Shown here: positions 10,081 through 44,318 of the stretch, piece after piece
Layout of the letters: each line of letters begins with the position of its first letter
Numbering within the stretch: the stretch's first letter is position 1
Assembly (NCBI GenBank): GCA_019634625.1
Contig: JAHCBA010000012.1
Location: 1 to 64,000, forward strand
Reading direction: 5' to 3'
Source of the DNA: Verrucomicrobiia bacterium
GTDB lineage: Bacteria > Verrucomicrobiota > Verrucomicrobiia > Limisphaerales > CAIMTB01
DNA: 64,000 nucleotides
Notes under the pieces: model-generated
Told to the model about the DNA's origin: nothing
Seen by the model: the letters and a program-made list of their open reading frames with translations, nothing else
Databases searched by the model: none
Program-made: the position numbers and the translations under genes

Positions 10081-10154
10081 GCGAAGTACGCCGGCAATCT
10101 GCCGCCATCGGGGGAGGAAGCAATCATCGATCTCGGGGGGGGCCTTGGGATCCG

Positions 10155-10323
10155 GTGCTTCCCGGAGGAGTGGGTGGGGAGGCGGCGAATCGGAGGGACG
10201 ATCACTGCGAGTCCTCAACCCAACGCTCCCCAACGCTCCACACCGTTGCGGCCTCGTGGAACCCGGCCCTCCGAAACGACGGTTCGCGAGGTTCGCACCT
10301 CCCCCCACAACGCCGGGATGCAC
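10155..10323 (-). repeat. Palindromic interspersed repeat, diverged copy
   Basis: This is a reverse-orientation copy of the element at 39001. It shares the internal blocks TCGGAGGGACGA, TGCGAGTCCTCAA, CCTCGTGGAAC and CGGCCCTCCGA, and ends with a CCGGGATGCAC terminus. Its own outer ends (GTGCTTCCCGG and the partner near 10313) are more diverged than in the other two full copies. It lies upstream of the protease gene. The insertion sequence beginning at 10333 starts just after its right end. Confidence 0.8.
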
Positions 10324-10332
10324 GGCCTGGGT

Positions 10333-10378
10333 CAGCAGTTCTCATTTTGGAAGAGTGGCCTGAGCGCGAGGGTGGACG
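10333..10378 (+). repeat. Left terminal inverted repeat of the insertion sequence
   Basis: 46 bp starting CAGCAGTTCTCATTTTGG, perfectly repeated in inverted form at 12747-12792. The identity stops abruptly at 10378. The target duplication GGCCTGGGT abuts its outer end at 10324-10332. Confidence 0.92.
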
Positions 10379-10502
10379 CGTGGGTAGTGGAAGGGTGGCG
10401 TGATCGACGAGGAGGGCCCTGGACGAGGGCGGAGGGGAGATTCGGGCAGGCGCAAGCCCCGCGGACCGAAAGGCCGCGGTGGGGCGGAGAACCCGGTCAG
10501 GC

Positions 10503-11790
10503 TTTTTTCGAGTACGGCCCCAGTTCGAGGCCTCGCATCATGAAGTCCAGGAGTTCGCTCCAGCCGGGAAAGTGGATGTAGAGGGTCAGGGCCCGGACAT
10601 GTTCGAAAGAACGTCCGGCGGAGAGCCTGGCGCGCAATAACCTGTAGGGCTCATCGAGCCAACCCAGCGCGGCATGCACGAGAGGCCAGGGTTCAAGGAG
10701 GTGAGGACCGCTGCCAGTGCTTCTTGCCGTATTCAAGTTGTGATCGAGATGATAGCCCTTGGTCTTGAGGGTGTTGTTGTTCTCGTTCTCGATCTTTAAC
10801 AGGCTAATGCCGAGGCTGCCAGGCTGGCGACGTTGGTTTCGTCGATCTTCCAGTCGTTGACCCAGGCATTGTAGTGATCTCGTCTGGCCTTGGGGGTTTG
10901 GTGACGCGAAGCTCCGAACCAGTTGACCTTCAGAGCATCTTTCCCCCTCGGCCAAAGGGGCGCCGTGGGTCATCGGTAGGTGTAGGTGAGCGTTTCGGCG
11001 CTTCTCGCGAACGCGCATCGCAAGGTGCGCGGTCGGTCAGGTTGGAGATCGATCCAACGGTAGAGGGCGATATGGGACGAGGGCTTGGCGGTGAAGAGGA
11101 AATGGCCGTCGTGGAGGAGGACCACTGACGGCAGAAGGGTTTGATGGGCACAGATGTCGTCGCCCAGAACCGTGACGGGTCCGCGTGGCGACGGTAGAGT
11201 TCGAAGTTGGCCTGGAGCCAGCGCTTGGCGGCAGCGATCTCGCAATCCTGCTTCTCGTGGCCGTCCTGGGGGCGATGTATTCGGGACGCAGGCGAAGACT
11301 TCGGCACGACCGGGAGCCACCATGACCGAGGGTCAGGGCCGTGTGAAAATAGATCCGCGGTCCCTTCTCGGGAGTGAGGTGCGAGCAACACGGTCCGTGG
11401 ACCTTCGCCGAAGAACGGTAGCCGGTGCCGTCCAGCGCGATGAGGCGATGGACTGGTGGACCCCGTGAAAGTCCTCCAGCAATCCTCGTCCCACCAGAGC
11501 ATCAGGACCCGGTCGGAAAATCGGATGCAGCCTCAGGGGACCGGATCGAGCATCTGTCGGACCTGGTTGTCGCTGGGAATACGGGTGATGCCGAAGAGGC
11601 TCTGGGCGTTGTCGCAGCCACGTGCCTGGCGCATCGCCTTCTGGTAGGCGAGAAGGAGGCGACTGGGTGAAAAAACCGCGAGGCGCTCAAGCCGAAGTCC
11701 TCCATCGCGTAGGACTTGTTGGTGCGCGACGCCGGGTCATGGCGGCAGCAGTGCCTCGCGCAGGTGATCCCGCCGCCGATTGAAGAAGGG
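10503..11790 (-). pseudogene. Transposase pseudogene (ISNCY-like DDE family), multiple frameshifts
   Basis: Read on the minus strand, recognisable blocks appear in changing frames. Near 11700-11530 there is an N-terminal part with AYQKAMRQARGCDNAQSL then FGITRIPSDNQVRQMLDPVP. Near 11290-11200 comes the very characteristic PQDGHEKQDCEIAAAKRWLQ. At 10795-10740 is KIENENNNTLKTKGYHLDHN, the conserved region containing the catalytic Glu in this family, followed by a C-terminal IHFPGWSELLDFMMRGLELG ending at about 10503. No single frame spans the gene, and there are stops and shifts near 11650, 11530 and 11400. It is therefore inactive. The order (DruA-like gene first, transposase second) is that of the element. 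Confidence 0.85.
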
Positions 11791-11795
11791 TGGGT

Positions 11796-12653
11796 TCATG
11801 GGCAAAGGCGCTGGCGCCAGTGCAAGCCCAGCGGGCGTACGAACACTTCCTTGGCGGTGGTGGAGGCGGTGTCGGAGGGGCCATTGCGTCCCCACTGCCG
11901 GTGGTTCGCCCCAACGGCAGCCGCGGCGGCGGTGCGAGGTGCCGGCAAAGCGGGATCGACGAAGGTCTCCACCAGGTCACGCCTTGTCCGTAGCGTTGGC
12001 GCCAATCCGGTCAGACGGCCGAGGACCCGGGCCAGGACATGGCTGGCCAGGTGGGGCACACGCACCCAGGCCGGGATGAGGAAGCGGGTATTGTTGGTCA
12101 GTCGCCAGCGATGCCGATGACGTTGTTCCTCGTTCAGCCGATGAAGGCGTCGCGCGGCCTGACAATGCCAGGCGGCCAGGCGAAAACGCGCCGCCAGGGC
12201 GCCCGGTCCGGGACAGACCAGGTAGCCGATGTTTTCGCCGACGCGGTTGCGAAAACCCAGGTAGTGATGGCGCTGGAGCGGTGCCCGAAGAGCGTCTTCG
12301 CGCGAACCTGGAGCCACGGGATCGATGCGCACCGGCTCAGGCTCGCCAGAATCGGCTTCCAGAACGCTGCAGTCAGCTCGATCTGGACCAGTTGCCGGTT
12401 GCGTCGATCGTTGACGCTGGGACGTTGACGCGAAGGCAGCCGAATCCAGCCACGAGCCTCCAACTTGAGAGCGAGCTGCGGCAGGCCATATCTTTGGGAC
12501 GCTGGCGTGTCGGTGTGCCAATCCCAACGCTGGCAGAGCTCTCTGTGAAATCCGGGTTCCGATGCCAATCCGGATGGTCGGCGAGCAGTTGCGGATCTCG
12601 GCCAGTTCCGCCGGGGTCAATCGCCGCCCCTGGATGACTTCGTCGACGACCAC
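11796..12653 (-). pseudogene. DruA-like (DUF4338) gene, frameshifted
   Basis: The C-terminal two thirds is in one frame and shows the DUF4338 signatures HHYLGFRNRVGENIGYLVC, NNTRFLIPAWVRVPHLASHV and RRDLVETFVDPAL. The N-terminus VIQGRRLTPAELAEIR is in the same frame, but the segment between (FHRELCQRWDWHTD, KLEARGWIRLPSRQRPS) is in another frame, with a short KDMACR block in the third, so at least two frameshifts interrupt it. DUF4338 includes DruA of the Druantia anti-phage system, but many relatives sit beside transposases. Here it lies inside a bounded insertion sequence, so an element-borne role is more likely than defence. Confidence 0.85.
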
Positions 12654-12746
12654 GGGCCTTGGCTATATCCGAGGAAGGGGTGTGAGTCCCGCAAAAAGTG
12701 AAAAAACTTTGGGAACACCGGCGTCCCATGGCCCGATCCCTCTGCT

Positions 12747-12792
12747 CGTCCACCCTCGCGCTCAGGCCACTCTTCCAAAATGAGAACTGCTG
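12747..12792 (-). repeat. Right terminal inverted repeat of the insertion sequence
   Basis: Perfect inverted copy of 10333-10378. The outer end is followed at 12793-12801 by GGCCTGGGT, identical to the bases left of the element. The ATG at 12780 that would extend the next gene lies inside this repeat, so it is not taken as that gene's start. Confidence 0.92.
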
Positions 12793-28614: not shown

Positions 28615-28636
28615 GCCGTATCCCGCACGCGGTGCC

Positions 28637-28665
28637 AGCTTCGGAGGGACGAGCACCGCGAGTCC
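28637..28665 (-). repeat. Fragment of the palindromic interspersed repeat
   Basis: About 29 bp matching the internal block of the element (CGGAGGGACGAGC followed by GCGAGTCC) in reverse orientation relative to the copy at 39001. No terminal inverted repeats remain. It lies just upstream of the lipoprotein start. Confidence 0.6.
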
Positions 28666-28710
28666 GCACGGGATGCCATGGATGTCGTGAACCGCGGACC
28701 CGCTCTCCCC

Positions 28711-36564: not shown

Positions 36565-36606
36565 ACCGATTGGCTCCACGCGCGGTCAGCGAGCAAGGGA
36601 ATGGAA

Positions 36607-36686
36607 TCGGAGGGCCGAGTTCAACGATGCCGCAGGAAAGTGGAGCAATGGAACGGGGACTCGCGGAGCTCGTCCCTCCGAAGGGC
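36607..36686 (+). repeat. Partial copy of the palindromic interspersed repeat
   Basis: Matches the interior of the element at 39001 in the same orientation (TCGGAGGGCCGAGTTC, GTGGAGC, GGACTCGC, GAGCTCGTCCCTCCGAAG), but the two 21-bp terminal repeats are missing. It occupies most of the 156-bp gap upstream of the spermidine-synthase-like gene. Confidence 0.7.
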
Positions 36687-36720
36687 TGCATTTTAACCGA
36701 AACTTCGGGGAGGCACTTCG

Positions 36721-38973: not shown

Positions 38974-39000
38974 GTTCCTGACGCTGCCAGGCAGGAGGCC

Positions 39001-39159
39001 GTGCATCCCGGAGTTGTGGGTCGAGGCGCGAACTTCGCGAAGCGTTGCCTCGGAGGGCCGAGTTCCACGAGGTCGCAGGGGAGTGGAGCGTTGGATTGAG
39101 GACTCGCAGAGCTCGTCCCTTCGATTCGCTGCCTCCTCACCCACAACTCCGGGATGCAC
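39001..39159 (+). repeat. Palindromic interspersed repeat, full copy
   Basis: 159 bp bounded by a perfect 21-bp inverted repeat starting GTGCATCCCGGAGTTGTGGG (39001-39021 and 39139-39159). The same element, with the same internal blocks, occurs at 43535-43693 and, reversed and more diverged, at 10155-10323; fragments are at 28637 and 36607. No gene is inside. It fills half of the 331-bp gap before the VOC-protein gene; the remainder of that gap (39160-39304) shows nothing recognisable. Confidence 0.9.
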
Positions 39160-39304
39160 GGGGCAGGAGGCGGGCCCCTGTTCGGGCCTTGCATTTTCAT
39201 GTCCCCGCCGGTGGGAATGCTTCGTCGTTGCGGGGTGGCCGATAGCGGCATGCGCCCTCGAACGAACCGCCATTGGAAGACCCTGCCGATTCCCAGGATG
39301 CACC

Positions 39305-43443: not shown

Positions 43444-43534
43444 TCGGCCCCGCCCCAACCGCCGCCGGCGGTGTTTAGTCCCCGGCCATTCCCGGCCGGG
43501 AAGGCGCTTTCGTGGGCCGCGTGCCTTCCGACCC

Positions 43535-43693
43535 GTGCATCCCGAAGTTGTGGGGAGAGGTGCGAATTTCGCGAAGCGACGTCCCGGAGGGCCGAGTTCC
43601 ATGAGGCCTCAGCGGAGGGGTGCCATGGATTGAGGACTCGCGGAGCTCGTCCCTCCGATCCGCTGCCTCCTCACCCACAACTCCGGGATGCAC
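43535..43693 (+). repeat. Palindromic interspersed repeat, full copy
   Basis: 159 bp, same orientation and length as the copy at 39001. The terminal repeats GTGCATCCCG...GGGATGCAC are present with a few mismatches in the left arm (GAAGTT for GAGTT-type base). The right end overlaps the last codons and the stop of trpF (43671-43673) on the minus strand. The rest of the 227-bp gap (43444-43670) holds no gene. Confidence 0.9.
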
Positions 43694-44318
43694 CGCCTTC
43701 CGACCCTTTCGCTGCGGCAATGAAGTCACGTACCCTGGCGGGATCCTTTCTTCCGGGAGCGCATTCGACGCCGCTGGAGACATCGACTCCGTAGGGGCGA
43801 ACGTGGAGGACCGCCCCGGCCACGTTGCCGGGGTTCAGTCCGCCCGCCAGGATCACCCGGCCCCCTCGGACCACCGCGTCCCGAGCCAGATCCCAGTTGA
43901 AGGTCCGTCCGGTCCCCCCGTGGGATCCGGCGACATAACTGTCGAGCAGCCAGGTCAGAGGACGGTAGGCCTCCATCCGGTCGAGGGCGGCGGGGCTGTC
44001 CACACGGAAGGCCTTGATGACCCTGGCCGACCCGAACCGGCGGCAGAAGTCCGGGGATTCGTCCCCATGCAGTTGGAGCGTGTCCAATCCCGCACGTTCC
44101 AGCGTCCCGGCGACGGTGGGGAAATCGGCATCGACGAAGACGCCGACCCGCGCGATCAGGGGGGGCAGGGTGTCGGTGATGGCGCGGATGGCGTCGGGGT
44201 CGAGGTAGCGCGGGCTCCCCGGGTAGCACATGAAGCCGAGGGCATCGGCGCCGGCCTCGATGGCTGTCCAGGCGTCTTCGGCCCGGGTGATGCCGCAGAT
44301 CTTGACGCGGACAGGCAT
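43671..44318 (-). CDS. trpF: Phosphoribosylanthranilate isomerase
   Basis: 215 residues from ATG 44318, where the motif VRVKICGITRAEDAWTAIEA begins; longer frames upstream overlap dapB. Other motifs: ADALGFMCYPGSPRYLDP, LQLHGDESPDFCRRFG, IKAFRVDSPAALDRM, LLDSYVAGSHGGTGRTFNWD and ILAGGLNPGNV. It catalyses an Amadori rearrangement in tryptophan synthesis. The last residues (GGASRSCG) and the stop are encoded by the palindromic repeat. It lies 10 bp after dapB, a likely third gene of that operon. Confidence 0.93.
   Translation of the reverse strand: MPVRVKICGITRAEDAWTAIEAGADALGFMCYPGSPRYLDPDAIRAITDTLPPLIARVGVFVDADFPTVAGTLERAGLDTLQLHGDESPDFCRRFGSARVIKAFRVDSPAALDRMEAYRPLTWLLDSYVAGSHGGTGRTFNWDLARDAVVRGGRVILAGGLNPGNVAGAVLHVRPYGVDVSSGVECAPGRKDPARVRDFIAAAKGSEGGASRSCG

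Follow-up and report, generated by a model that had tools for sequence, protein, structure and literature searches.

We consider it highly probable that the repeat described here is a MITE on which an ISKra4-like DDE transposase acts in trans, and that its interior is a REPIN-like dimer drawn from an independent REP family. The MITE itself encodes no gene. Its inverted ends (TIRs) of about 20-22 bp would be recognised in trans by the ISKra4-like DDE enzyme, which would make cuts staggered by 9 bp. In this lineage an ancestral pair of such TIRs would, on one occasion, have come to flank a REP dimer that already existed. Thereafter the REP pair may have helped source copies to propagate, for instance through hairpin extrusion or by binding a host factor; its role would lie there and not in a function of each inserted copy.

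The 163-bp family and its target sites

A palindromic repeat of 159 bp had been predicted in the window (the whole 64,000-nucleotide stretch of Verrucomicrobiia DNA analysed), with two full copies and one diverged copy. The repeat is real and all three copies are present, but the limits were drawn too narrowly: the true ends lie 2 bp further out, where they are bordered by 9-bp duplications. With its ends set by these target duplications, the whole element is 163 bp long and reads C[C/G]GTGCATCCC...GGGATGCAC[C/G]G. It is bounded by TIRs of about 20-22 bp, C[C/G]GTGCATCCCGGAGTTGTGGG.

Copy A, a match to an nhmmer profile of genomic copies, occupies 38999..39161 on the plus strand, its ends placed from the target duplication. 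The same 9 bp, GGCAGGAGG, stand to its left (38990..38998) and to its right (39162..39170). The left TIR, CCGTGCATCCCGGAGTTGTGGG (38999..39020, plus), matches ISKra4-like ends and pairs with the right TIR (39140..39161, minus), which is the left TIR inverted. Between them lie two REP-like units that fit the unit pattern and carry few shared variants: one of CGGAGGGCCGAGTTCCACGAGGCC type at 39051..39074 (plus) and an inverted one of CGGAGGGACGAGCTCCGCGAGTCC type at 39100..39123 (minus). Copy B, also 163 bp, lies at 43533..43695 (plus), flanked by the duplication CCTTCCGAC at 43524-43532 and 43696-43704. Its REP-like units are at 43585..43608 (plus; columns 53-76 of alignment A3) and 43634..43657 (minus; columns 102-125), and its right TIR extends into the 3' end of a gene predicted on the minus strand at 43671-44318 (an approximate gene model). 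Copy C, a diverged full copy found by profile match at 10153..10325 (minus), has about 10 extra spacer bases; its duplication, CTTGGGATC and CCTGGGTTC (7/9), is split by a DruA-encoding element and was read by eye across this later insertion. The predicted fragments at 36607 and 28637 were both found, and their nature can be specified. The first is a one-ended copy D (36604..36717, plus; model positions 51-164) with the REP pair and right TIR and without the left TIR; the second is a solo REP-like unit E without a TIR (28636..28668, minus; profile match).

Abundance was estimated in the genome from which the window comes, a 6.74-Mb draft in 88 contigs. An nhmmer profile from 30 genomic copies was run over 864 kb and then over 1.664 Mb of it, so that the copy statistics refer to 1.66 of the 6.74 Mb. 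This profile search returned 168 elements (64 full, 65 one-ended and 39 core-only), which make up 1.19% of the bases in the 1.664 Mb and extrapolate to about 680, or roughly 700, whole or partial copies per genome. In the full 6.74 Mb, the exact 10-mer GTGCATCCCG occurs 358 times against 7 times for its reversed control, and the REP core unit, with at most 2 mismatches, occurs 935 times against 0 for the control. The high genome-wide number expected from the hits in the window is thus borne out. The family is clearly not one of few copies with unconserved ends. In the copy alignment the TIR helix has 20 pairs, with 90% of cells paired.

A mobile unit might be bordered by target duplications, as the original prediction had noted, and these are evident. 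When left and right flanks were compared at a fixed offset, nine positions matched, with a drop on both sides; the 9-bp signal was also present in a 39-copy version of the test. The duplication matches at 7 or more of 9 positions in 48 of the 64 full copies and at all nine in 22, whereas only about 0.45% of pairings between flanks of different copies reach at least 7/9. The TIR pattern was found at just 14 sites without the usual MITE interior after it, and most of these are mutated MITEs by their next bases.

Two other element types were seen beside the family. A 2460-bp element at 10333-12792 of the window has inverted ends of about 45 bp (CAGCAGTTCTCATTTTGGAAGAGTGGCCTGAGCG...), a perfect 9-bp duplication, GGCCTGGGT, and a DruA-domain gene at 11796-12653 (minus); no family of transposases could be recognised there. 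The element recurs at C1:125495-127989, where its duplication is GCCGTCCGC, and both insertions lie within 20 bp of a 163-bp MITE copy. A second MITE-like family of the same genome, with GGGCGCATCTCCATGTTGTCGG-type ends and without the REP core, is found at C6:77481-77865 and C1:268971-269082; one of its copies has a REP-cored MITE nested inside it.

Candidate transposase and elements with related ends

A consensus search of relatives, whose genomes are mostly metagenome-assembled, located two TIRs 2.2 kb apart in a genome of the same genus (G004; JADLFD01, Verrucomicrobiales bacterium isolate SJ352). They delimit an element of 2199 bp with ends CGGTGCATCCCGAAGTTGTGGGTGA. It encodes a 482-aa transposase-like protein that matches the NCBIfam ISKra4 model (NF033572, E 7.5e-45) at 153.8 bits, below the curated cut-off of 205; the next best match, ISLre2, scores 59 bits. 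A 287-aa DruA-domain protein (PF14236, 82 bits) is encoded in the same element. The window's own genome holds at C21 a 56%-identical homologue, in a 2195-bp element whose ends are near-identical and whose transposase gene is interrupted by one in-frame TGA. A second element, at C35, looks intact; its ends, GGGCGCATCTCAGATTTTCGG, are related to these but not the same, and its 9-bp duplication is perfect. No target duplication was found at the G004 and C21 elements, and no intact transposase with exactly the MITE ends was found in the own genome.

ISKra4-like relatives form elements of 1.0-2.6 kb; their ends are the same as those of the MITE or related to them, and their duplications are 9 bp long. 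End motifs NNGTGCATC or GGGCGCATC accompany 9/9 duplications at four loci (L123, L138, L140 and L142) and an 8/9 duplication at L141, and ends GGGCGCATC or NNGTGCATCC occur in relatives from Verrucomicrobiota, Kiritimatiellae and Sumerlaeia records. Measured from the end motif, the duplication begins at the same place in the relatives' elements as in the MITE. On these sequence comparisons, the transposase of the MITE is likely ISKra4-like, and we infer that such an enzyme mobilised it. The suggestion that the repeat is a MITE-like, non-autonomous unit has held up: TIRs, 9-bp duplications and a transposase family with matching, near-identical ends (in G004 and at C21) were all found. DDE_Tnp_1 (PF01609) genes were also considered as a source; there are four in the own genome, none with MITE ends.

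DruA genes lie beside the transposase inside three of the ISKra4-like transposons, L133 (G004), L122 (C21) and L123 (C35), and seem to be absent from their shorter relatives. DruA (PF14236) is known from Druantia, a defence system. Its presence here suggests a role that is either related to transposition or one of cargo.

Could the element instead be a REPIN mobilised by a Y1 transposase (RAYT), with outer inverted repeats that are no more than part of a longer palindrome? Its paired inverted hairpins, its high copy number and the 30 Y1_Tnp matches in the own genome would suit such an origin. However, none of 60 Y1 loci from eight draft genomes (30 own, 30 from relatives) is bordered by the REP unit, except where a few nearby units belong to MITE copies. 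Some RAYT-like genes of the order (L146, L165 and L172) carry GTAG-tagged REPs instead, and because three relatives' Y1 loci are bordered by GTAG hairpins, the check is able to detect RAYT-REP pairs. Moreover, 9-bp target duplications would be unexpected from Y1 single-strand transposition. We give an origin by RAYT almost no credence.

The REP-like core

What the original prediction had not seen is that the interior is a REP-like pair with an existence of its own. It consists of two inverted units with the consensus CGGAGGGMCGAGYTCCRCGAGKCC, each a hairpin with a 4-bp stem, a GA/GA mismatch, a 2-bp stem and a 3-nt loop. Stem positions M:K and Y:R vary jointly across genomes: all four combinations are seen, and by an eye count of the roughly 105 units listed from other genomes there are few exceptions. 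At three positions the long hairpin has a mismatch in every copy or almost every copy, while the local REP hairpins pair there; hence the units are best seen as separate hairpins. Like REPs, they are short hairpins in inverted pairs, in high copy number and mostly intergenic. The tag position reads GGAG, and not GTAG/GTRG or CGTC. Another GGAG-tagged hairpin, GGAGCGCGGACAGCCTTGTCCGCG, occurs in the own genome (C2:142002 and C4:226695) and in G092 (L231, L232 and L235), and GGAG may be the tag of several REP-like families in the phylum.

The exact REP unit is present in 16 of 146 genomes of the order. Five of these genomes have REP units without an exact TIR (G020, 37 units; G065, 22; G129, 14; G078, 11; G006, 10), while two genomes have TIRs without the REP unit (G087, 33; G092, 31); the own genome has 486 exact REP units and 219 exact TIRs. 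Across the 146 genomes the two parts are doubly dissociated, and judged by these occurrences the MITE is a chimera.

Could the element nonetheless be a MITE of the ordinary kind, shortened by internal deletion, with a palindromic interior that formed inside it and with free REP units that are decayed copies? One-ended (65/168) and core-only (39/168) copies are indeed common, and small copies of QMITE2 in Coxiella have been read as decayed MITEs (PMC5896051). In the own genome 56 of 276 REP units lie outside TIR-bearing elements, and in part these could be MITE remnants. However, the REP unit also occurs in other families whose genomes are without such a TIR, where it forms inverted pairs with other flanks and no MITE TIRs. 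Nor are the breakpoints scattered: 27 of the 39 core-only matches end where the REP does, at model positions 127-129. Gaps between convergent genes are favoured by free REP units (15/34) and not by full copies (9/61). We regard decay of an ordinary MITE as improbable, and capture of an independent REP dimer as the better account.

BIME-like arrays of the REP unit with a common linker (AAGTGAAGCGG..GGGGTG) were observed at C1:155772-156212, C3:185205-185416 and L124:115-211. There are also hybrids, in which BIME-like REP arrays are joined to one MITE end.

The same TIRs enclose different interiors in other genomes, in MITEs of 133 bp (G087), about 195 bp (G092), 157 bp (G007), 167 bp (G001; duplication CGGCGAATC, 9/9) and 189 bp (G057; duplication GAAGGAAAC, 9/9). 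The G087 MITEs (L206-L221) hold two GTAG-tagged hairpins as a pair; the same hairpin is also paired, without TIRs, at L208:1845-1914. G092 (L226-L245) also has minimal forms of 72-75 bp with one hairpin only. No GTAG-tagged core hairpins were found outside MITEs in 381 kb of G092, so capture of a REP is unsupported for this genome. Recurrent capture is suggested by three or four genomes, two of which support it well. A wider proposal, which we advance tentatively and rate at a little under an even chance, is that ISKra4-type MITEs of the order repeatedly recruit REP-like pairs as needed cores (own genome, G087, G092 and G001). RAYT-less REPs would then spread via a DDE transposase, and the core would be required for transposition or would aid it.

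Does the core matter to the MITE? We compared variants among 46 gap-free full copies, calling those in one copy only private and those in at least four copies shared. Private mutations are spread evenly, at 0.56 per site in REP units, 0.58 in linkers and 0.60 in TIRs, as expected of neutral decay after insertion. Shared variants are not: they are densest in linkers (0.54 per site), fewer in TIRs (0.20) and scarcest in REP units (0.06), so that, presuming comparable mutation rates between regions, they are about 9-fold rarer in REP units than in linkers (permutation p 5e-5). Shared variants mark source lineages, and their depletion points to a role of the REP units at the time when copies were multiplying. 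The core thus appears constrained in source copies.

Gene conversion between REPs, without selection on source copies, might also have conserved the units. They are numerous and similar enough to recombine, and hybrids of a MITE half with a REP array exist. Conversion should, however, erase private REP mutations too, and REP units hold about as many of these per site as linkers do. This alternative, which concerns the constraint alone, we think unlikely.

The even private mutations bear as well on the alternative offered in the original prediction, a structured RNA or DNA unit, under which each copy would be kept as a functional RNA hairpin: a terminator, a stabiliser of mRNA 3' ends or a regulatory RNA. 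The fold is very stable, as that idea would have it (-93.5 kcal/mol, z -6). Full copies are intergenic in 61 of 64 cases, compared with 15% of random positions, and 28 of 51 flanking gene 3' ends lie within 100 bp of a copy; these placements are approximate, being based on gene models from a simple codon-score caller. However, covariation of the pairs among 29 copies was not above that in shuffles, so individual copies bear no sign of upkeep as structures, and there is no Rfam match at the elements. By gene context, 33 full copies are co-directional, 19 divergent and 9 convergent (n=61): they track the available intergenic space, not gene ends. Upkeep of each copy as RNA is thus weakened to the point of being very improbable.

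Relation to known systems

REPINs and BIMEs resemble the core in their two inverted hairpins, the tetranucleotide before the stem, their several hundred copies and their mostly intergenic location (PMC3116915, PMC2817692). They are, however, REP dimers mobilised by RAYTs and tagged GTAG or GTGG, whereas the present unit is tagged GGAG, with no associated RAYT found, and most units of the own genome are internal to a MITE of DDE type that has target duplications. The system resembles the ISKra4 family (DDE) in the similarity of its candidate transposase (NF033572, E 7.5e-45), in its 9-bp duplications and, at several of the related ends, in an initial GGG. It differs in that the MITE encodes no transposase, in a parent score under the curated cut-off, and in the extra DruA (PF14236) gene that several of the elements have. 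In the literature joining ISKra4 with MITEs, we found incidental mentions only.

REP dimers inside a fixed outer palindrome are described in Anabaena variabilis and Halothiobacillus neapolitanus (PMC3733652). The portion of that report on which we rely gives neither a transposase nor a target duplication, both of which are identified here, and it leaves open how CGTC REPs spread without a transposase. The present family offers one concrete route for the spread of RAYT-less REPs: they could travel within the MITE of a DDE transposon, one for which a candidate transposase can be named and the ends and target duplications are defined. To the published cases this analysis adds an assignment of the transposase, evidence that core and ends exist independently of each other, and the result on constraint. 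The contrast between private and shared variants also yields a testable claim, that the internal hairpin pair, besides the ends, matters for MITE propagation.

The nearest published case is QMITE2 of Coxiella burnetii, a MITE with TIRs, direct repeats of 7-11 bp and a GTAG REP inside (PMC5896051; review PMC10969869). As in the present family, this is a MITE of 150-190 bp with a REP inside, its TIR-less short versions are REP-like, IS insertions occur in it, and it is largely intergenic (PMC5896051). It differs in having about 50-60 copies and, in the part of that account used here, no cognate transposase family assigned; its REP has a GTAG tag, where ours has GGAG with no RAYT found. A further difference is that the present REP core is shown to occur on its own in TIR-free genomes, so that a second kind of repeat seems to have spread as a passenger of a transposon.
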